Assembly: GCF_017810075.1 (NCBI RefSeq)
Contig: NZ_JADNYK010000003.1
Location: forward strand, 1 to 64,000
Origin: Pseudozobellia sp. WGM2
Lineage (GTDB): Bacteria; Bacteroidota; Bacteroidia; Flavobacteriales; Flavobacteriaceae
DNA: 64,000 nucleotides
Reading direction: 5' to 3'
The notes beneath the pieces were generated by a model. It was given only the letters and a program-made list of their open reading frames with translations. It did not search any database and was not told where the DNA came from. Numbering within the stretch: position 1 is the stretch's first letter; every line of letters starts with the position of its first letter. Made by a program: the position numbers and the translations under genes. This document shows, piece after piece, positions 7,949-18,496 of the stretch.

Positions 7949-8926
7949 TTATTTATATAACACTTTCTTAACAGCGTTTATAACATCTTCGTGATTGGGC
8001 AACCATTCGGCCAACAATACCGGCGAATATGGTGCCGGTGTATCTGCCGTGTTTATTTTTTGAATAGGTGCGTCTAAATAATCGAATGCATTCGCTTGTA
8101 CGTGAAAAGTAATCTCAGTGGCTACGTTACCGAAAGGCCAAGCTTCTTCAAGAATGACCAATCTGTTCGTTTTCTTAACCGATTTGAGTATTGCATCGTA
8201 ATCCATTGGTTTTACGGTGCGTAAATCTATAATCTCGCAGCTAACACCCTCTTTTTCCAATTCATCGGCAGCCTTAACAGCTTCTTTTATAATTTTTCCG
8301 AAGGAGACAATGGTTACATCGCTACCCTCTCTACGAATATCGGCTACCCCCAATGGAATGGTGTATTCACCTTCTGGCACTTCACCCTTATCACCGTACA
8401 TCTGTTCCGACTCCATAAAAATAACCGGGTCGTCATCACGAATTGCAGATTTCAACAGACCTTTGGCATCTGCCGGGTTAGAGGGCACTACGACTTTTAG
8501 CCCCGGGCAATTCGCATACCAGCTTTCAAAAGCTTGGGAGTGCGTCGCGGCCAATTGACCTGCAGATGCGGTCGGCCCACGAAAAACAATAGGGCACGGA
8601 AACTGACCACCGGACATCTGACGGATCTTCGCGGCATTATTAATAATCTGATCGATACCTACCAAAGCAAAGTTGAAGGTCATGAATTCAATGATCGGGC
8701 GGTTACCTGTCATAGTAGAACCCACACCGATACCTGCAAAACCGAGCTCAGCGATCGGAGTATCGATTACACGTTTTGCACCGAATTCATCGAGCATACC
8801 CTTAGAGGCCTTGTAAGCACCATTATATTCAGCCACTTCTTCTCCCATAAGGTAAACGGACTCGTCTCTTCTCATTTCTTCGGTCATGGCCTCAGCAATG
8901 GCTTGCCTAAATTGTAACGTCTTCAT
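7949..8926 (-). CDS. pdhB: Pyruvate dehydrogenase E1 component, beta subunit
   Basis: The 325-residue beta subunit forms, with the alpha subunit, the thiamine-diphosphate-dependent E1 that decarboxylates pyruvate and passes the acetyl group to lipoyl-E2. Family marks: LMGEEVAEYNGAYKASKGM (about 26-44), the thiamine-binding region DTPIAELGFAGIGVGSTMTG (55-74), FMTFNF, and the C-terminal transketolase domain with VTIVSFGKII and ILEEAWPFGNVATEI. The alpha subunit and E2/E3 are not in this window, so the complex is encoded at separate loci. It is divergent from etfBA, and the shared upstream region holds a 26-bp perfect palindrome. A related 2-oxoacid dehydrogenase beta subunit is the only alternative. 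Confidence 0.9.
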   Translation of the reverse strand: MKTLQFRQAIAEAMTEEMRRDESVYLMGEEVAEYNGAYKASKGMLDEFGAKRVIDTPIAELGFAGIGVGSTMTGNRPIIEFMTFNFALVGIDQIINNAAKIRQMSGGQFPCPIVFRGPTASAGQLAATHSQAFESWYANCPGLKVVVPSNPADAKGLLKSAIRDDDPVIFMESEQMYGDKGEVPEGEYTIPLGVADIRREGSDVTIVSFGKIIKEAVKAADELEKEGVSCEIIDLRTVKPMDYDAILKSVKKTNRLVILEEAWPFGNVATEITFHVQANAFDYLDAPIQKINTADTPAPYSPVLLAEWLPNHEDVINAVKKVLYK

Positions 8927-9027
8927 ATGCTATGTGATGTGTCTTTTTATTAATTAGCTAAAATGGCAAGCAAAAATAGGAAAATATATATCAATTCATT
9001 TACCCTAGACCCCAAAAAAGAAACAAA

Positions 9028-9053
9028 AAAATACTATGCATGCATAGTATTTT
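9028..9053. promoter_or_regulatory. 26-bp perfect palindrome, candidate operator between pdhB and etfB
   Basis: The centre ATACTATGCATGCATAGTAT (9031-9050) is self-complementary and is extended by AAA on the left and TTT on the right. It lies about 50 bp before the etfB start and about 100 bp before pdhB, overlapping the expected -33 region of an etfB promoter. A dimeric repressor or activator site is the likely role; the protein is unknown. Confidence 0.6.
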
Positions 9054-9067
9054 AGTAAAAGAATACT

Positions 9068-9075
9068 TATCTTCG
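9068..9075 (+). promoter_or_regulatory. Putative -7 promoter box for etfBA
   Basis: TATCTTCG differs from the Bacteroidota -7 consensus TAnnTTTG at one position and lies 27 bases before the etfB ATG. The -33 element is poor (TTTAG in place of TTTG). Confidence 0.4.
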
Positions 9076-9102
9076 TAAGGTCAATTTAAAAGAGTAGTAT
9101 AG

Positions 9103-9843
9103 ATGAAAATATTAGTTTGTATAAGTAATGTTCCCGATACCACGTCAAAAATCAATTTTACCGACGGGGATACTAAATTTGACACCAATGGTGTGCAGTT
9201 CGTCATCAACCCTAACGATGAGTTCGGTCTTACCCGTGCCATGTGGTTCAAAGAGAAACAAGGTGCTACGGTGCACATTGCCACAGTTGGCGATGCATCG
9301 GTAGAACCTACGATGAGAAAAGCTCTGGCTATTGGCGCAGACGAGGGCATTCGTATCAACGCAGTACCTACCGACGGTTTCTTCGTAGCGGAACAATTGG
9401 CTAGTGTTGTTAAGGATGGTGCGTACGATTTAGTTATTGCCGGAAGAGAATCTATCGATTACAACGGTGGTATGGTGCCCGGTATTTTGGCCACCCTCAC
9501 AGGCATGAACTTTATTAACACTTGTATCAATCTCGAAGTTGAAGGTGATACCGCTACTGCTATGCGTGAAATAGATGGGGGCAAAGAAAAAGTGCAGACC
9601 CAATTGCCATTGGTCATTGGCGGCCAAAAAGGATTGGTTGAAGAAAGCGACCTTAAAATACCGAACATGAGGGGCATCATGATGGCCCGTAAAAAAGCTC
9701 TGAATGTAGTGGAGCCCATTGGTGCGGTTAAAGCTACGGTCGACAATAAGTTCGAAAAACCTGCCCCGAAAGGCACCGTAAAACTTGTCGATTCTGCCGA
9801 CGAATTGATAGCATTGCTTCACAATGAAGCCAAGGTTATCTAG
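9103..9843 (+). CDS. etfB: Electron transfer flavoprotein, beta subunit
   Basis: EtfB (246 residues) pairs with EtfA to carry electrons from acyl-CoA dehydrogenases and other flavoenzymes to the quinone pool. The N-terminus MKILVCISNVPDTTSKI, the AMP-binding stretch AGRESIDYNGGMVPGILA (about 124-141), and the LPLVIGGQKGLVEESDLKIPNMRGIMMARKK region are diagnostic of the beta subunit. Length is normal. It is followed 47 bases later by etfA in the same direction, so the two are almost certainly one transcript. Confidence 0.94.
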   Translation: MKILVCISNVPDTTSKINFTDGDTKFDTNGVQFVINPNDEFGLTRAMWFKEKQGATVHIATVGDASVEPTMRKALAIGADEGIRINAVPTDGFFVAEQLASVVKDGAYDLVIAGRESIDYNGGMVPGILATLTGMNFINTCINLEVEGDTATAMREIDGGKEKVQTQLPLVIGGQKGLVEESDLKIPNMRGIMMARKKALNVVEPIGAVKATVDNKFEKPAPKGTVKLVDSADELIALLHNEAKVI

Positions 9844-9890
9844 AGTGATTTTTCGACTTTAACTCAATTTGAAAATTTAAATAATAAAAA

Positions 9891-10859
9891 ATGTCAGTTC
9901 TCGTATATACAGAATCAGAAAACGGAAAGTTTAAAAAGAACGCTTTCGAAGTGGCCTCATATGCCAAAGCGGTTGCAGAGCAACTGGGCACCTCAGCGGT
10001 TGCCATTTCTTTCAATGCAGATGCCAATAATGATTTGGGCACTTACGGTATTTCAAAAGTATTGAACGTGACCAGCAATCAGTTACAAACTTTTAACGCC
10101 GAGGCGTATGCCAAAGCAATTGCAGAAGCTGCAAATAAAGAAGAAGCAAATGTTGTTATCGTCAGTTCTAGTGCGAACAGCAAATATTTGGCTCCTATCT
10201 TGGCTGGTAAGTTAAAGGCTGGCTATGCCCCTAACGTAGTAGAAGCACCTAGTAATACGACTCCATTTACTGTTAAGCGCACCGCTTTCAGTAATAAAGG
10301 GTTTGCCCATACAGAAATTACTACCGATAATAAAATCGTTGGGGTTTCTAATAATGCCTTCGGAATCGTCGAAAATAACGCAGATGTCGCAGTCGAAGAT
10401 TTTAGTCCATCATTAGATGATACCGATTTTGCGGTAAAATCTGTCGAAGTCGATAAAGTGGCCGGTAAAGTAACCATTGCCGATGCGGAAATCGTAGTTT
10501 CTGGAGGTCGCGGACTTAAAGGACCTGAAAATTGGGGAATGATCGAAGAGCTGGCCGAAGTTTTAGGTGCGGCCACCGCTTGCTCGAAGCCTGTTTCCGA
10601 TATGGGCTGGAGGCCACATGGCGAGCACGTAGGCCAGACAGGTAAGCCGGTAGCGGCCAATTTATACATTGCCGTTGGTATTTCAGGAGCCATTCAACAC
10701 TTGGCAGGTGTTAGTGCCAGTAAAACGAAAGTGGTGATCAATAACGATGCCGAGGCACCGTTTTTCAAAGCGGCCGATTATGGTATTGTAGGAGATGCCT
10801 TTGAAGTAGTACCGCAGCTGGTCGAAAAATTAAAAGAATTTAAAGCCCAAAACGCTTAA
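9891..10859 (+). CDS. etfA: Electron transfer flavoprotein, alpha subunit
   Basis: EtfA (322 residues) binds the FAD of the heterodimer. The C-terminal FAD domain is clear: VVSGGRGLKGPENW (about 203-216), the PVSDMGWRPHGEHVGQTGK stretch, and LYIAVGISGAIQHLAGV with VINNDAEAPFFKAADYGIVGD. The N-terminal domain has the same alpha/beta fold as EtfB. It closes the etfBA operon and is followed by a strong hairpin terminator. Confidence 0.95.
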   Translation: MSVLVYTESENGKFKKNAFEVASYAKAVAEQLGTSAVAISFNADANNDLGTYGISKVLNVTSNQLQTFNAEAYAKAIAEAANKEEANVVIVSSSANSKYLAPILAGKLKAGYAPNVVEAPSNTTPFTVKRTAFSNKGFAHTEITTDNKIVGVSNNAFGIVENNADVAVEDFSPSLDDTDFAVKSVEVDKVAGKVTIADAEIVVSGGRGLKGPENWGMIEELAEVLGAATACSKPVSDMGWRPHGEHVGQTGKPVAANLYIAVGISGAIQHLAGVSASKTKVVINNDAEAPFFKAADYGIVGDAFEVVPQLVEKLKEFKAQNA

Positions 10860-10884
10860 TTTTTGTTAATTTGCGCCCTCTAAA

Positions 10885-10930
10885 GGGCTGTTTAAATTTC
10901 GGGTATGCCCATATTTAAACAGCCTTTTTG
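10885..10930 (+). terminator. Intrinsic terminator after etfA
   Basis: A perfect 12-bp stem GGCTGTTTAAAT (10886-10897) with ATTTAAACAGCC (10913-10924); the loop holds a second small hairpin (GGGTATGCCC). A T-tract follows on the plus strand. The next gene starts only 16 bases after the T-tract, so it may also act as a leader hairpin for that gene; a TTAATTTG box at 10867-10874, one base off the -7 consensus, could provide its promoter. Confidence 0.8.
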
Positions 10931-10945
10931 TATTTTTAAAATTCT

Positions 10946-11575
10946 ATGAGCTTAGTCAGGTTAAAAATAAAGGGAATTTCATACAGTCAAACGCAAAACG
11001 GTGCTTACGCCCTCATTTTGAATGAGGTAGACGGTGATCGCAAGTTGCCTATCGTCATCGGTGCATTCGAGGCACAGTCCATCGCCATTGCTTTGGAAAA
11101 GGAGATTAAACCCCCTCGCCCATTGACCCATGACCTTTTTAAAAATTTTTCCGACCGCTTCGACATCGTCATCAAGCAAGTGATTATTCACAAACTGGTA
11201 GACGGTGTTTTTTATTCCAGTATCATCTGTGAGCGTGACAAGATCGAAGAAATTATCGATGCGCGTACTAGTGATGCCATTGCATTGGCATTGCGTTTTG
11301 ATGCCCCCATCTTCACCTACAAAACCATTTTGGACAAGGCAGGTATCTACCTGAAATTCTCATCTAAAGACACCGACAAAGAAGAAACCGACGAAAGTAT
11401 CGTGGTCGATGAAATTCTTCAAGAAGGCGAAACCGTTGAGATTGAAACCGGTGCCACTGATGGTTATACCGAACTTACCGTAGACGAACTCAACAAAGAA
11501 CTTGATAAGGCTGTAGCCAATGAAGACTATGAGAAGGCGGCCAAACTGCGTGACGAAATTTCGAAACGTAACTAA
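10946..11575 (+). CDS. Bifunctional nuclease family protein (DUF151) with C-terminal UVR motif
   Basis: This 209-residue protein carries a BFN/DUF151 domain (about 1-130; LVRLKIKGISYSQTQNGAYA, LPIVIGAFEAQSIAIALE, RTSDAIALALRFDAPIF) and a C-terminal UvrB/UvrC-type helical hairpin (about 178-208; LNKELDKAVANEDYEKAAKL). BFN proteins were described as nucleases in plants; in bacteria the role is not firm. The UVR motif is a protein-protein contact module found in UvrB, UvrC and Clp regulators. The acidic linker (about 138-170) is low in complexity. The gene starts just after the etfA terminator and is followed 33 bases later by the nucleoside transporter. Confidence 0.82.
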   Translation: MSLVRLKIKGISYSQTQNGAYALILNEVDGDRKLPIVIGAFEAQSIAIALEKEIKPPRPLTHDLFKNFSDRFDIVIKQVIIHKLVDGVFYSSIICERDKIEEIIDARTSDAIALALRFDAPIFTYKTILDKAGIYLKFSSKDTDKEETDESIVVDEILQEGETVEIETGATDGYTELTVDELNKELDKAVANEDYEKAAKLRDEISKRN

Positions 11576-11608
11576 TCAATACGAACCACTAAATACGCAG
11601 GCGACTAT

Positions 11609-13054
11609 ATGAATACCAAACTTTGGATCCTTCTGCTTGCCTTGTGTACCTTTTTCCCTTCTCTGGCCCAAGATTCTTTAGCTGTAGACATTGTAGACTC
11701 CGTTACGTATAACGATGTTCGAGAAAATACGGCAGATATAGTGCCCAATGGCGGATTTAGCATCAATAGTTTTTGGCGGGGCATGCTGGGCATGGCCGTG
11801 CTCATTCTTATTGCATTTCTATTCAGTTCAAATCGCAAGGCCATCAACTGGAAAACCGTAGGCATCGGGCTTTCATTACAACTATTGATTGCTGTCGGCG
11901 TATTAAAAGTTACATGGGTACAAATGGCATTCGAAGCTATTGGTGCCGTTTTCATCAGTATTTTAGGCTTTACCCGGGCGGGTAGTAAATTTCTCTTTGA
12001 AGGGCTTGTGGTCGACACCAATACCTTTGGTTATATTTTTGCCTTTCAGGTATTGCCGACCATTATTTTCTTCTCGGCACTGACCTCCCTTCTATTCTAT
12101 TTGGGAGTGATTCAAAAGGTCGTTCGCGGATTGGCCTGGTTGCTTTCAAAGAGTTTGGGTATTTCGGGTCCGGAGAGTCTTTCGGTAGCCGGAAATATTT
12201 TCTTGGGTCAGACCGAAGCCCCATTGTTGATCAAGGCTTATTTGGAAAAAATGAACCGATCAGAAATTTTATTGGTGATGATTGGGGGGATGGCCACCGT
12301 TGCCGGTGCCGTACTTGCCGCATATATCGGATTTTTAGGGGGGGAGGATGAAGCTCTACAGCTCGTTTTTGCGAAACATTTATTGGCAGCTTCGGTTATG
12401 GCAGCACCCGGTGCCATTGTTATTTCAAAAATTCTGCATCCACAGACGGAAGTCGTAAACACCGACATCGAGGTTTCTACCGAAAAAATAGGTTCGAATA
12501 TGCTCGACGCCATCGCCAACGGAACGACCGAGGGTCTTAAATTGGCCGTTAATGTAGGTGCAATGTTATTGGTATTTGTAGCACTTATTGCCATGATCAA
12601 TGGTATTCTAGGCTATGCAGGAGATTTGACCAACTTCAACCAATGGATGGCCGAAAATACGGCCTATAGCGAATTCTCGCTCGAAGCTATTTTAGGTACT
12701 GTTTTTGCACCCCTAATGTGGTTGATCGGGGTTGCGAATGAAGACGTGATGTTGATGGGCCAATTGCTCGGAATAAAACTGGCCGCCAGTGAATTTGTCG
12801 GCTATATTCAATTGGCCGAGTTAAAAGATTTGACCCAAGGTGCCAATCTCTCTTACAATAAATCGGTAATCATGGCGACCTATATGTTGTGTGGTTTTGC
12901 CAACTTTGCTTCCATTGGCATTCAAATCGGTGGCATTGGCTCTTTGGCTCCCGGCCAACGCAAAACCCTTTCCGAATTCGGAATGAAAGCCGTATTGGGC
13001 GGTTCTATCGCTTCCCTTCTTTCCGCTACCATTGCCGGAATGATTTTGGGGTAA
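11609..13054 (+). CDS. Concentrative nucleoside transporter (CNT/NupC family)
   Basis: A 481-residue cytoplasmic-membrane symporter that takes up nucleosides with H+ or Na+. The CNT core starts near residue 50 and includes LLAWLLSKSLGISGPESLSV-type sequence with GNIFLGQTEAPLLIKAY (about 195-211), the conserved substrate-binding hairpin, and IANGTTEGLKLAVNVGAMLL. The last third has FAPLMWLIGVANEDV and the closing GMKAVLGGSIASLLSATIAG. Unusually, an N-terminal signal-peptide-like segment plus a 20-residue linker (MNTKLWILLLALCTFFPSLAQ) precedes the core, a feature common in Bacteroidota members. It may be cotranscribed with the nuclease-family gene; nuclease plus nucleoside uptake would be a coherent pair, but this is inference. 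Confidence 0.88.
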   Translation: MNTKLWILLLALCTFFPSLAQDSLAVDIVDSVTYNDVRENTADIVPNGGFSINSFWRGMLGMAVLILIAFLFSSNRKAINWKTVGIGLSLQLLIAVGVLKVTWVQMAFEAIGAVFISILGFTRAGSKFLFEGLVVDTNTFGYIFAFQVLPTIIFFSALTSLLFYLGVIQKVVRGLAWLLSKSLGISGPESLSVAGNIFLGQTEAPLLIKAYLEKMNRSEILLVMIGGMATVAGAVLAAYIGFLGGEDEALQLVFAKHLLAASVMAAPGAIVISKILHPQTEVVNTDIEVSTEKIGSNMLDAIANGTTEGLKLAVNVGAMLLVFVALIAMINGILGYAGDLTNFNQWMAENTAYSEFSLEAILGTVFAPLMWLIGVANEDVMLMGQLLGIKLAASEFVGYIQLAELKDLTQGANLSYNKSVIMATYMLCGFANFASIGIQIGGIGSLAPGQRKTLSEFGMKAVLGGSIASLLSATIAGMILG

Positions 13055-13314
13055 TTAATTGAAAATCGGTAAATCTCAACTTTACGGTTTTAATATTGTA
13101 GCCCTTCTTTCCCTAAACCTTATTATTTCAGTACTGCATTCGTTCTTCATACATTACCTATAATTCTTAACAAGTACCTCCCTCCCTCTTAACCCAAAAA
13201 ATACTTTTCTTTCAACAAAAAATCTTATTTTTAAAAGCTCCTCACTTCGGTCCGTTCCCCAAACGCCGATGAAGATTTAATTTAGAACTTGACGTAAACT
13301 TTAATTAAAAGACT

Positions 13315-14869: not shown

Positions 14870-15547
14870 TCAACGAAACACATATAAGAGTGTCACAATC
14901 CTCCCTTTTCCTTTCTCTAAATCCACAGATAACAATTCCTTTTTTTCTTTTATTCGCAAATTAAATGGAGGTGCCAAGAGGTCTAGTCCGCTCTGCTTTT
15001 TAAGGCGTATTCCTTGTCCCGAAATAATATCTTTGTTAGGTAGAAAATCTCCAACCGGTAGATGTTCGGTAAGAATCAAATATTTATAATTGGGGAGTTT
15101 ATCGACCACAAGCTGCACCTCTGCATTCGATAAATGTTGCAGTACTTGCCGAAGTAGCACACAATCGGCAATGGGCAATTCATCTGCAGCGATATCCAAG
15201 CATTGAAATTCTAAATTATCGGCCTTGAATTTTTCTTGGTTATATGCTATAAGTTCCGGTACAATATCCATGGCTACATAGCTTTGTGCATGCGTTACCA
15301 AATCTTTTCCCACATTAAAATCACCACAACCCAAATCACAAACTGAAATCCGTTCCTGAAAAGAATTTAAAAAAGTGGTTACCGCATCAATATAGGGTTG
15401 CACGAGTTCAGGTCGGTGTGAGCCCTCCCCAGAATAATAGGTATCAGGCTTTCCGCCCCAAAGATTTTTTTTATACACTTGCTCCATAGCCGCTTTGGTA
15501 GGCCATGGCTTCTTTATTCTTTTATTGGCCTTTTCATTCTCTTTCAT
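14870..15547 (-). CDS. Class I SAM-dependent methyltransferase
   Basis: A 225-residue protein. The SAM-binding motif ISVCDLGCGDFNVGKDLV (about 67-84) is followed by the acidic YVAMDIVPELI, then LEFQCLDIAADELP and ADCVLLRQVLQHLSN. The N-terminus is basic (KENEKANKRIKKPWPTK) and contains WGGKPDTYYSGEGSH, a signature of a group of bacterial methyltransferases of unknown acceptor. It starts three bases after the stop of the Fur-family gene on the same strand, so it is probably the second gene of a Fur-led operon. Confidence 0.8.
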   Translation of the reverse strand: MKENEKANKRIKKPWPTKAAMEQVYKKNLWGGKPDTYYSGEGSHRPELVQPYIDAVTTFLNSFQERISVCDLGCGDFNVGKDLVTHAQSYVAMDIVPELIAYNQEKFKADNLEFQCLDIAADELPIADCVLLRQVLQHLSNAEVQLVVDKLPNYKYLILTEHLPVGDFLPNKDIISGQGIRLKKQSGLDLLAPPFNLRIKEKKELLSVDLEKGKGRIVTLLYVFR

Positions 15548-15550
15548 AAG

Positions 15551-15928
15551 CTAAACCGTACAATCGCTACAGGTACCCGTCACCATACAATTAAGGCCAC
15601 TGACCTGATAGCCTTCAGGGGGCGAAAAATCAACAGGTACCGGCAAACATTCGATGGTCTCACAACTCAAACAACGAAAATGAAAATGATGACCGGCCAA
15701 TACCTTATCTTCACAATTGGTACAAATGGCAAAGTACTGCTTTCCGTTATCGGCAACTACCTTATGCAACACCCCATCTTCACAAAACCGGTTCAACACA
15801 CGATATACCGTAGCCCGATTAATACCTGTCGTGATTTTCTTTTCAATGGCCTCTCTGCTCAGAGCCTTACCCGATTGGGACAAGACTTCTAATACCGCCT
15901 CCTTAGTCTGTGTGTTTCTACGCTCCAT
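15551..15928 (-). CDS. Fur-family transcriptional regulator
   Basis: A 125-residue metal- or peroxide-responsive repressor of the Fur superfamily. The winged helix-turn-helix occupies about 8-60 (EAVLEVLSQSGKALSREAIE, INRATVYRVLNRFCEDGVL). The dimer domain is rich in metal ligands: C69-C72 (CTNC), His80/81/83, C86-C89 (CLSC), C114 and C120-C123 (CSDC). This exceeds the two CxxC pairs of ordinary Fur/Zur and leaves the sensed signal open (Zn, Fe or peroxide). It is divergent from a flavoprotein operon; a 23-bp inverted repeat in between is the natural operator. It leads an operon with the methyltransferase downstream. Confidence 0.87.
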   Translation of the reverse strand: MERRNTQTKEAVLEVLSQSGKALSREAIEKKITTGINRATVYRVLNRFCEDGVLHKVVADNGKQYFAICTNCEDKVLAGHHFHFRCLSCETIECLPVPVDFSPPEGYQVSGLNCMVTGTCSDCTV

Positions 15929-15951
15929 ATTAATGCGATAGTTTCGCTATT

Positions 15952-15974
15952 TTATTGCGACTAGTTTGCAATAA
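15952..15974. promoter_or_regulatory. 23-bp inverted repeat, candidate Fur-family operator
   Basis: TTATTGC (15952-15958), nine bases, GCAATAA (15968-15974): a perfect 7-9-7 inverted repeat, the size expected for a Fur-superfamily dimer site. It lies 24 bp from the Fur-family start and about 50 bp before the flavoprotein ATG, where binding could repress both. A second, shorter repeat GCGA-N5-TCGC is at 15935-15947. Confidence 0.6.
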
Positions 15975-16023
15975 TAATATTTTTAATACATTTGTGCAAG
16001 TTCAACCTTCTAAGCCCAATCGT

Positions 16024-16947
16024 ATGACAACACCCTATTGTTTTGATGTAATCATTGTCGGAGGAAGTTATTCCGGTCTTTCCGCTGCCATGGCCCTTGG
16101 CCGTTCTTTGCGCAAGGTACTGATAATCGACAGTGGACAGCCCTGTAATCGGCAGACGCCATATTCACATAACTTTATCACCCAAGATGGAGTACCACCT
16201 GCAGAAATAGCCGAAAAGGCCAAAGCACAAGTCTTGCAGTACGATAGCATACAATTTACCGAAGATCGGGTCGTAAGCGGTCACAATGTAGAAGATAATT
16301 TCTTCATTACCACCTCATCAGGTAAGGAGTACCAAGCTAAAAAGTTGATTTTTGCAACGGGAGTCAAGGACCTGATGCCGAATATCAAGGGCTTCGCTGA
16401 ATGCTGGGGAATTTCGGTCATTCATTGCCCCTATTGCCACGGCTATGAATTCAAGCATAAAAAAACTGCTATTATGGCACCTAGTGAACATGGTTATCAC
16501 TTGGCATCTTTAGTGCATAACCTAACAGACCACCTTACCCTGCTCACATCGGGAAAAAATGATTATAGTATCGAACAAGTGGAAGCTCTTGCACATAATA
16601 GCATACAAATTATCGAGATACCGGTCGATGAGATCCAACATAAAGATGGCCATATAGAACGAGTGATTTTTATAGATGGTAGTTCCATCAAACTTGATGC
16701 CCTGTATGCGGGTATACCCTTCAAGCAACATTGCGATGTGCCCATAACCCTCGGTTGTGAACTTGATGAAATGGGCTACTTGAACGTTGACCAATTTCAA
16801 AAAACAACGGTCAAAGGAATTTATGCCTGCGGAGATAGCACCACCAGGCTACGCTCTGTAGCTACCGCTGTGAATAGCGGACTCGTAGCCGGAGCCATGG
16901 TCAATAAAGAACTAGCAGAAGAACAATTTCCAATATCAGTTATATGA
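16024..16947 (+). CDS. Thioredoxin-reductase-like FAD oxidoreductase
   Basis: A 307-residue flavoprotein from the ATG at 16024 (an upstream TTG at 15955 would add 23 unlikely residues and overlap the operator). The FAD site VIIVGGSYSGLSAAMALGR (about 9-27), the redox-active pair HCPYCHGYE (about 134-142) and the C-terminal GIYACGDSTTRLRSVATAVNSG match thioredoxin reductase. The second Rossmann motif, where NADPH would bind (GGGDSA in TrxB), is replaced by MAPSEHGYH, so the electron donor may not be NADPH. It heads an operon with an 82-residue protein (4-base ATGA overlap) and a methyltransferase. A role in thiol redox or metal/oxidant stress is inferred from the Fur-family neighbour. Confidence 0.82.
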   Translation: MTTPYCFDVIIVGGSYSGLSAAMALGRSLRKVLIIDSGQPCNRQTPYSHNFITQDGVPPAEIAEKAKAQVLQYDSIQFTEDRVVSGHNVEDNFFITTSSGKEYQAKKLIFATGVKDLMPNIKGFAECWGISVIHCPYCHGYEFKHKKTAIMAPSEHGYHLASLVHNLTDHLTLLTSGKNDYSIEQVEALAHNSIQIIEIPVDEIQHKDGHIERVIFIDGSSIKLDALYAGIPFKQHCDVPITLGCELDEMGYLNVDQFQKTTVKGIYACGDSTTRLRSVATAVNSGLVAGAMVNKELAEEQFPISVI

Positions 16948-17192
16948 TTGAGGTATTTATCACCGATATTAAAGATGAATGTGAAATCAAAAGCGTTTTG
17001 AAGTCACTTGGTATTCACTTTCCGAATTTGAAGGTAAGTTATGATTTGAACGAAACCAACATGCCCTTCCCTTGTGGTCACACCATTCTAAGAGTTAAAT
17101 CGGCAACCATTTACCCTGAGAAAATCATTTCCTTAGTCCAAAAGAGTGGGTTTCAATGTGAGGTTTTAGAAGACAAAATTTGTATTAAATGA
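16944..17192 (+). CDS. Small protein of unknown function
   Basis: An 82-residue protein that I do not recognise. Its ATG overlaps the flavoprotein stop (ATGA), so it is translationally coupled and real. The pattern IEVFITDIKDECEIKSVLKS, ILRVKSATIYPEKIISLVQK, CEVLEDKICI suggests a small beta-alpha-beta-beta-alpha-beta fold of the size of a heavy-metal-associated domain, but the CxxC metal motif is absent. Scattered cysteines (FPCGH, FQCEV, KICIK) may be redox-active or metal-binding. Its place in the operon suggests a partner of the CxxC flavoprotein. Confidence 0.7.
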   Translation: MIEVFITDIKDECEIKSVLKSLGIHFPNLKVSYDLNETNMPFPCGHTILRVKSATIYPEKIISLVQKSGFQCEVLEDKICIK

Positions 17193-17200
17193 ATTAAGTC

Positions 17201-17800
17201 ATGGCCGAATTCTGGGAAGACAATTTTAAAGAGAAACAAGAAATGTGGGGTATGAAGCCCGCAAATTCTGCAATCCTAACAAAAGACCTGTTTCTAGCAA
17301 AAGGAATAAAAAACATACTGGTACCCGGTTTCGGGTATGGGAGAAATGCTCAAGTTTTTCAAGATAACGGTATCGAAGTTACGGGAATTGAAATCTCTCG
17401 AACGGCTATTGAGCTTTACCATAAGCATTTCGGAGATGCAATGACGGTACACCACGGTTCGGTCACCAACATGCCTGTTGAAACCGACAAATATGACGGC
17501 ATTTATTGTTTTGCACTGATTCATTTGCTAAATCAAAAAGAACGGAAGAAACTGATTCGAGATTGTTATAATCAGTTGAAGAGCGGTGGCATTATGGTAT
17601 TTACAGCAATTACCAAAGAAGCTAAGACTTATGGGAAAGGTTCGCCTCTTGGCAAAGATCGTTTTGAAATTTTTGATGGCCTACAGTTATTTTTTTATGA
17701 CCAAGAATCCGTTAATGCCGAGTTTGACCAAGTCGGTCTTTACGAAGTGTTAGAAATTGAAGAAGACCAACCTATGTATTTAATAAAATGCCATAAGTAG
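17201..17800 (+). CDS. Class I SAM-dependent methyltransferase (TehB-like)
   Basis: A 199-residue protein, eight bases after the small protein and thus third gene of the flavoprotein operon. It begins AEFWEDNFKEKQEMWGMKPAN, as in the TehB/thiopurine methyltransferase group; the SAM site is ILVPGFGYGRNAQVFQDNGI (about 38-57) followed by VTGIEIS. YDGIYCFALIHLLNQ and LKSGGIMVFTAITKE are the later core strands. Substrate unknown; related enzymes methylate thiols or metalloid oxyanions. Together with the Fur-family regulator and the CPYC flavoprotein this suggests a stress-related module. Confidence 0.82.
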   Translation: MAEFWEDNFKEKQEMWGMKPANSAILTKDLFLAKGIKNILVPGFGYGRNAQVFQDNGIEVTGIEISRTAIELYHKHFGDAMTVHHGSVTNMPVETDKYDGIYCFALIHLLNQKERKKLIRDCYNQLKSGGIMVFTAITKEAKTYGKGSPLGKDRFEIFDGLQLFFYDQESVNAEFDQVGLYEVLEIEEDQPMYLIKCHK

Positions 17801-17802
17801 TT

Positions 17803-18240
17803 ATGCAAACGTAACAATTCTATAAAGAATTCGATATTGATACTGAACGCAATTGGCATATGATATTTGTACTTCTTGAAAAAGAAGAGAAACTATCTAC
17901 TACAGAAATAGCCGATTCACTACAGATTAGCCACCCTGGGGTTATCAAACTGGTAAAGAAAATGAAGAAAAATGGGTACTTGCAATCTGAGCAAGACCCG
18001 AATGACGGTAGAAAACATCTTTTATGGTTATCTCAGAAAGCGATAGATAACTTACCCCAGCTTCACTACTATTGGAATATTGCCACCACAGCTTTAGAAG
18101 CAATGATGAACCATTAAACAGCGCTTTTAGAAGAACTTCGAGTGGTAGAACAACACTTGATAGATTCAGACTTTAAAAAAAGAATCGTACTAAAGTTGAA
18201 CGAGAAAAAAGAGTGGGACTATGATGCTAAAAATATTATT
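17803..18240 (+). pseudogene. MarR-family regulator remnant with two in-frame stops
   Basis: One frame carries a MarR-type winged helix: FYKEFDIDTERNWHMIFVLL, then KLSTTEIADSLQISHPGVIK, LVKKMKKNGYL, DGRKHLLWLS. It is interrupted by TAA at 17812-17814 and TAA at 18115-18117, yet the same frame resumes with plausible sequence on both sides (MQT before; TALLEELRVVEQHLIDSDFK after). The normal N-terminal dimerisation helices (about 30 residues) are also missing. The longest stop-free piece with a start codon is 17860-18117 (85 residues), which keeps the DNA-binding wing but not the dimer helices. I read it as a decayed gene. Confidence 0.7.
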
Positions 18241-18496
18241 GGATATCTCAGGATGGGCGGTATCGATAATGGTACTGGCCTCCTACTCCCTTACCTCATT
18301 TAAAACAAATGACTTTTCAAAAATTTTCAGCCACCTCAACCTAATAGGCAGCATGCTCATCGTTTTAAATTGTCTATATTACAATGCCATACCTTCATTT
18401 TTTACAAACATAGTTTTAACGTGTATTGCCCTTTTCTTTATTTACTGTAGAAGAAAGCACTTGGTAAAATCGTCTTTTGGCCTGGAAAAAAAATAA
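18221..18496 (+). CDS. Small membrane protein, CBU_0592-like
   Basis: A 91-residue protein with three hydrophobic segments (about 7-25, 39-55 and 60-78). GWAVSIMVLASYSLTS, HLNLIGSMLIVLNCLYYNAIPSFFTNI resembles a widespread family of three-helix inner-membrane proteins (CBU_0592-like) without known function. The start overlaps the tail of the MarR remnant. Nothing in the neighbours defines its role. Confidence 0.65.
   Translation: MMLKILLDISGWAVSIMVLASYSLTSFKTNDFSKIFSHLNLIGSMLIVLNCLYYNAIPSFFTNIVLTCIALFFIYCRRKHLVKSSFGLEKK

Follow-up and report, generated by a model that had tools for sequence, protein, structure and literature searches.

Among described systems, those closest to the locus reported here include: (i) DnoP (PA4170) of P. 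aeruginosa, a dithiol oxidase of the DepH group that detoxifies gliotoxin and related toxins, those of the holomycin type included, and is induced under zinc starvation through a signalling cascade that 'has yet to be elucidated' in the words of the available part of PMC11317636, and (ii) the GliT and GtmA enzymes of Aspergillus, which oxidise and bis-thiomethylate, respectively, the same zinc-chelating dithiol, and whose double mutant has a sensitivity that is reversed by zinc (available part of PMC10500201). The survey of COG0523 proteins and Zur used training sets from Firmicutes and proteobacteria, according to the accessible portion of PMC2770081. No Zur box described for Bacteroidota turned up in the open-licence literature, and no dedicated regulator-operator-oxidase unit of this phylum was found there among the matches listed. 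The term 'dithiol oxidase' did not occur among the literature matches listed for Bacteroidota, where an earlier paper is possible, or in the available part of PMC12288471. One listed paper, on gliotoxin and the depletion of metals (PMC10533825), contains the words 'Zur' and 'Chryseobacterium'.

The locus described here is from Pseudozobellia sp. WGM2 and lies in a 64-kb stretch of DNA (64,000 nucleotides, termed the window), in which a Fur-family regulator gene and a flavoprotein operon (c1-c2-c3) diverge from a conserved inverted repeat (Table 1). Each component is of a known kind. Zur-like control of c1-c2-c3 through the repeat is very likely. The whole account, in which a Zur-like repressor lets the operon open at low zinc and the oxidase disarms dithiol zinc chelators, is given a probability of roughly 0.55.

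Table 1. Features of the regulator-flavoprotein locus (positions are those of the window)
Feature	Position	Strand	Basis
Fur-family, Zur-like regulator, 125 aa	15551..15928	-	PF01475; Cys4 and H55/C69/H81/H83 conserved; model fold
Second, weaker operator	15930..15952	.	13.7 bits; second-best in window
Main operator, 10-3-10 enclosing 7-9-7	15952..15974	.	exact match; 28.1 bits; counterpart in 73/76 related loci
TTTG, probable -33 element of flavoprotein promoter	15965..15968	+	inside main operator; 18 bases before TAnnTTTG box
TACATTTG, probable -7 element of flavoprotein promoter	15987..15994	+	12 bases past operator, as in relatives
c1, FAD flavoprotein of GliT/HlmI/DepH dithiol-oxidase type, 307 aa	16024..16947	+	PF07992; PDB matches; CPYCHGYE
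c2, 82-aa ORF	16944..17192	+	beta-alpha-beta-beta-alpha-beta model, HMA-like shape, no CxxC
c3, class I SAM-dependent methyltransferase, candidate thiol S-methyltransferase	17201..17800	+	PF08241 2.6e-15; TPMT PF05724 7.7e-8

The operator and its conservation

The 95-bp gap between the regulator gene (minus strand) and the ATG of c1 (plus strand) contains TTATTGC-GACTAGTTT-GCAATAA, a perfect 7-9-7 inverted repeat at 15952-15974, in the divergent promoter region where an initial annotation of the sequence had placed it. The genome search for this form that the annotation had suggested yields no other exact copy, the repeat being single both across the window and across the whole 4.70-Mb genome. 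Looser matches number 6 in the window with three mismatches allowed (6.4 expected) and 47 in the genome at two or fewer mismatches (26 in the backward control); such matches carry little meaning, those of the window being at chance level and the genome list largely chance. Relatives reveal the motif to be a longer site, TTAWTGCRAC-N3-GTYGCAWTAA (10-3-10), which is often duplicated nearby. By a scoring matrix built from the relatives, window excluded, the repeat is the top site of the window (28.1 bits) and is followed by 15930-15952 (13.7 bits), a site absent from the initial annotation, and by an unrelated place of 1.1 bits. The second operator has one base in common with the main operator and ends one base before the regulator start codon. 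Second sites of at least 5 bits are present in 51 of 73 relatives, the spacing being 22-24 bp (24 relatives), 51-54 bp (18), 76-77 bp (8) or 38 bp (1); the pairing suggests cooperating dimers.

Relatives of the locus were collected by scanning genome contigs with the regulator, which gave 77 loci, nearly all of Bacteroidota, and sites were counted within 200 bp upstream of the regulator gene at three or fewer mismatches to the 10-3-10 consensus. A site is found in 73 of the 76 loci scanned (L074, with its upstream missing, was left out) compared to 0 of 3800 dinucleotide shuffles, the lowest of which has 4 mismatches; the figure of 73/76 is partly circular, as the consensus was drawn from the same loci, and the loci are related rather than independent. 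The 7-9-7 form is likewise retained in 73/76 loci at three or fewer mismatches. The misses are L071, L075 and L076, the last two being partial matches. Loss of the repeat from relatives that keep the gene pair, the outcome that the initial annotation had named as contrary to its proposal, is not seen: all 56 relatives with a flavoprotein gene that satisfies the adjacency rule of the script keep the 10-3-10 site at three or fewer mismatches. Two more loci (L001 and L010) have the site and an adjacent flavoprotein gene, and fall outside the rule only through far-upstream ORF start calls.

In L071 (Zobellia russellii), an integrase-like ORF continues in frame into the regulator, which is a fragment, and L071 and L031 (Tenacibaculum adriaticum) have a related downstream ORF that resembles, by eye, a conjugation coupling protein. 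Thus, a mobile element may carry the regulator region or have entered it.

A second survey covered 118 genomes of the order of the source organism, with a c1 relative (E<=1e-40) in 33 and a regulator match (E<=1e-20) in 22. From these, 37 loci were taken (36 of the 38 listed c1 places and one regulator locus, the window itself and one partial match being excluded), on contigs some of which are identical to those of the 77-locus scan. The 37 loci (255,327 bases) have 41 sites of at least 15 bits compared to 1 in the reversed sequences. Six of the 37 are without a site (L108, L111, L131, L133, L134 and L135), the last four being second copies of c1 in their own genomes. In 19 c1 loci the fetched stretch shows no Fur-family match; a site precedes c1 by 59-126 bp in 13 of them and is lacking in 6; thus, the site tracks the flavoprotein gene, beyond what pure autoregulation would account for.

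The promoter consensus of Bacteroidota is TTTG/TAnnTTTG. Within 45 bp of the site, a TAnnTTTG box is found on the side of the divergent gene in 57 of 73 loci (at 12-14 bp in 44 of these) and on the regulator side in 15 of 73, compared to 2.6% of shuffled segments. Of the 13 regulator-free c1 loci with a site, 10 have the box, 11-13 bp away. A repressor on the main operator of the window would mask the -33 element of the flavoprotein promoter. Given how the box is distributed between the two sides, control of the flavoprotein through the site is better supported than the autoregulation that the initial annotation had also proposed.

The regulator and other genes behind its motif

The regulator is a member of the Fur superfamily (PF01475, 44.5 bits; cut-off 23.1) and, with its conserved site, bears out the reading of a Fur-superfamily protein whose operator serves the flavoprotein operon. 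It has the three CxxC pairs (C69/C72, C86/C89 and C120/C123) and the histidine cluster (HHFH at 80-83) that had been reported. C86, C89, C120 and C123 are conserved in 75 of 75 regulator sequences, as in the structural Cys4 of Zur, and H55, C69, H81 and H83 (75, 73, 75 and 75 of 75) correspond to the regulatory M-site of Zur; C69 is aligned with the hinge cysteine of FurB. The first set probably forms the usual structural zinc site and the second a Zur-type regulatory site. The D-site histidine pair, which is not universal in Zur, is incomplete, with F82 in 75/75 and H80 in 40/75. A67 (75/75) occupies the position of the acidic hinge ligand of Fur and PerR (Fur E81/PerR D85). For ScZur, the ligands C79 and H87 are noted in the available part of PMC11077047. 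The surplus of possible ligands, from which the initial annotation had suggested an unusual signal, comes down to C49, C72, C94 and C114, which are unusual, most of the possible ligands being ordinary; an unusual signal is possible and zinc is likelier.

Neither sequence scores alone nor Foldseek separates Zur from Fur for this protein. In NCBIfam it matches Fur and Irr models, with scores well under the cut-off in every case, and the Zur model NF008646, an enterobacterial-type equivalog, is not among the matches at E<=0.001. The PDB sequence search has a Fur at the top (2w57, 5.8e-6) and FurB/Zur in fourth place (2.9e-4), and the structure model (pLDDT 84.5) has Zur and Fur as its nearest solved folds. 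The genome encodes four Fur-family genes: that of the window, one on contig C22, one on the side of a purA-like ORF and one beside a P-type ATPase and RND efflux cluster. An iron-Fur identity of the window regulator is judged unlikely, another Fur-family gene of the genome having 90.5 bits and a purA-like ORF nearby (by eye). In L096, a 1478-aa ORF (8643-13079) that resembles, by eye, an RND pump fused with an outer-membrane efflux protein adjoins a Fur-family gene and a P-type ATPase.

Other genes share the motif. A search of this genome for the 10-3-10 form at three or fewer mismatches finds 6 sites compared to 2 in the control, and the three best are the window site and two that precede the Fur-family gene on C22. 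That gene diverges from genes for MerC, a TonB receptor and three DUF4625 proteins. ZnuD is the sole PDB match of the receptor at 1e-10 and is first among its NCBIfam models, yet at 133.8 bits compared to a cut-off of 950. The three DUF4625 proteins (L095, 12293-14590) come after this receptor and are candidates for surface zinc-binding partners. At one or no mismatch, the 118 genomes have 33 sites, in 24 genomes, compared to 6 in the backward control, and ten sites distant from c1 were fetched for gene context. COG0523 GTPases are 90-150 bp downstream of the site in three (L165, L167 and L169), and the one scanned of these, in L165, matches the zinc metallochaperone ZigA at 546.5 bits, just below the cut-off of 600. 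The site of L162 is in a cluster of TonB receptor, lipoprotein and Fur-family gene (by eye), those of L166 and L168 are next to an unassigned receptor-like gene, and four (L160, L161, L163 and L164) have no visible zinc link. From the company of the motif (ZnuD-like and ZigA-like genes) and the Zur-type ligands retained in the regulator, we infer that zinc is the likeliest signal.

The flavoprotein operon

The c1 flavoprotein belongs to the dithiol-oxidase family of GliT, HlmI and DepH. Its PDB matches are led by 3fbs (190 bits), DepH (184), 4fk1 (153), 4ntd (133.5) and GliT (120), whereas ordinary TrxR chains reach 81 bits or less; c1 is thus nearer to the dithiol-oxidase group than to TrxB. 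The 4ntd entry, deposited as a thioredoxin reductase, is HlmI. The catalytic CPYCHG[YF]E is present in 62 of 62 c1 sequences above 230 aa (CPYCHGYE in 61 and CPYCHGFE in 1), a count that includes the window and drops two shorter ORFs, of which one (L053) is without the motif. The GxGxxA motif for NADPH is absent from the c1 variants shown. The flavoprotein, initially annotated as TrxR-like, is therefore better described as of the dithiol-oxidase type, and it is a candidate for an O2-dependent oxidiser of a dithiol natural product.

Two other identities were tried for c1 and rejected: (i) TrxB, with 103.8 bits to TIGR01292 (cut-off 343.45) and no GxGxxA, a true TrxB being encoded elsewhere in the genome (378.7 bits, GAGDTA motif), and (ii) MerA, with 50 bits to TIGR02053 (cut-off 454.45). 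In Zobellia uliginosa (L053/L136), the c1 ORF is just 175 aa and has no CPYC, while the site, c2 and c3 are still there; this copy looks decayed.

The c1 and c2 genes overlap by 4 bases and c3 begins 8 bases after c2, so the three look like one operon. The c2 protein has no Pfam or NCBIfam match; its structure model (pLDDT 86.1) finds nothing at E<=0.001 by Foldseek, with HAH1, CCC2a and GolB among the weak matches, and 'HMA-like' is a reading of the model shape. The best matches of c3 are generic methyltransferase models, and a thiol specificity, for which the TPMT match is weak, is a guess. With the window subtracted, the 77 regulator loci include c1 in 62, c2 in 17 and c3 in 14. Directly past the operon, a MarR-like gene (17803-18276) has two in-frame stops and looks broken. 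In Euzebyella marina (L001), counterparts of a methyltransferase gene (14870-15547) and a transporter-like gene (11609-13054) of the window lie next to the regulator. Among the neighbouring genes that were inspected, no biosynthetic cluster could be recognised.

Proposed function and known systems

We propose that a zinc-loaded, Zur-like repressor would bind between the divergent genes, at one 23-bp operator or at two, where it would cover the -33 element and keep c1-c2-c3 off. A drop in cell zinc, or a dithiol chelator that takes the zinc, would derepress the operon; c1 may then re-oxidise the chelating dithiol to the disulfide, and c3 may serve as a back-up that caps thiols by methylation, in the manner of GliT and GtmA with gliotoxin. 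Counting against this account are the Fur that leads the PDB matches of the regulator and its Fur and Irr models with no Zur model, the phenylalanine that replaces one D-site histidine in 75/75, the six siteless loci of 37 (four being second copies), the presence of c3 in 14/77 loci only and a receptor in L110 that matches siderophore and B12 receptors rather than ZnuD. A further proposal is tentative and falls well short of an even chance. In one form, a self-contained chelator-sensing cassette, a dedicated Zur paralogue would detect the stripping of zinc by microbial dithiols and act through tandem operators on an oxidase and on a thiol methyltransferase; in the reverse form, cells would take up zinc on foreign dithiol metallophores and free the metal by oxidation of the ligand.

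Zinc acquisition by itself is the main rival and is doubtful. Here, a receptor and a MerC-like protein would import zinc on a foreign dithiol metallophore and c1 would oxidise the ligand to free the zinc. In six of the fetched loci (L110, L112, L113, L114, L116 and L118), c1 lies between a Fur-family gene and a TonB receptor, and L110, the one opened of the six, has the order MerC-c1-TonB receptor behind the site, an operon of Flavobacterium type. The receptor of L110 matches siderophore and B12 receptors; with this gene order, the match suggests that an imported dithiol complex may be the source from which c1 releases zinc. MerC and a small secreted ORF also follow c1, in the same direction, in L007, L011, L014, L047 and L077; the MerC of L007 is confirmed by Pfam, and a partial receptor of this locus has ZnuD as its best match (7.5e-16), followed by B12 and siderophore receptors. 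Loci without c1 (e.g., L036, L039, L056 and L059) have a divergent MerC-like protein, a small secreted ORF and sometimes a TonB receptor. By contrast, no importer is linked in the window, and the 13 regulator-free loci with c1 and the site have no MerC or TonB match to proteins of this genome in the fetched stretch; thus, c1 often works without a linked importer.

A general redox defence, in which a PerR- or Fur-like sensor governs a thioredoxin-reductase-like enzyme against peroxide or thiol stress, is less likely again. The lead of Fur over Zur models for the regulator and its extra CxxC (C69/C72), possibly redox-active, would suit such a sensor, as would a flavoprotein that resembles Old Yellow Enzyme by eye and adjoins the regulator in L002, L003 and L005, with c1 behind it in L003 and L005. 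Against it are the invariant A67 in place of the acidic hinge ligand, the score of c1 far under the TrxB cut-off in a genome with a true TrxB, and the motif common to ZnuD-like and ZigA-like genes. Least likely of the three is resistance to soft metals (mercury, copper or gold) by a mer-like operon of flavoprotein, HMA-like carrier and MerC, which the MerC domains of linked or co-regulated loci and the shape and weak Foldseek matches of c2 favour, and which the low MerA score of c1, the lack of a CxxC in c2 and the sharing of the operator with ZnuD-like and ZigA-like genes oppose.

In one bacterium, zinc starvation has been shown to be coupled to dithiol defence, with no known regulator in the available part of PMC11317636; under the preferred account, dithiol defence at low zinc, the locus provides a regulator and a DNA site for such a coupling. 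The arrangement would couple zinc starvation to chemical defence in many Bacteroidota, would suggest that many of these bacteria face dithiol zinc chelators often enough to retain the defence, and offers a candidate zinc operator for the phylum. A thiol methyltransferase for holomycin is called undiscovered in the available part of PMC10500201 (2023), and c3 is a candidate, from bacteria, for an enzyme of that kind. If the cassette or the metallophore-uptake reading were true, zinc-targeting dithiols would be widespread in the ecology of Bacteroidota.

The regulator and its motif are like Zur in the Fur fold, the Cys4 structural site, the Cys/His regulatory site and the ZnuD-like and COG0523 genes under the motif. 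They differ in the missing D-site histidine and in the operator, TGCRAC-N3-GTYGCA, the usual Zur operator being AT-rich and of the 7-1-7 type. HlmI and DepH of antibiotic producers are of the same oxidase family as c1; these enzymes and GliT/GtmA serve the producers' own toxin or its biosynthesis, a difference from the present locus as far as its inspected neighbours show. GliT/GtmA of Aspergillus fumigatus, as partly described, are alike in oxidase family and in meeting a zinc chelator with both dithiol oxidation and thiol methylation, and c3 beside c1 would fit such a pair if the guess of thiol specificity, from the weak TPMT match, holds. DnoP is likened here by its described group, as a flavoprotein of the DepH-group dithiol-oxidase type, and induction by zinc starvation is a trait of DnoP. 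In contrast to DnoP, as far as its published description is available, the flavoprotein gene of Pseudozobellia and its relatives comes with a dedicated Fur-family gene that diverges from it and with a conserved operator, to which some loci add a methyltransferase.
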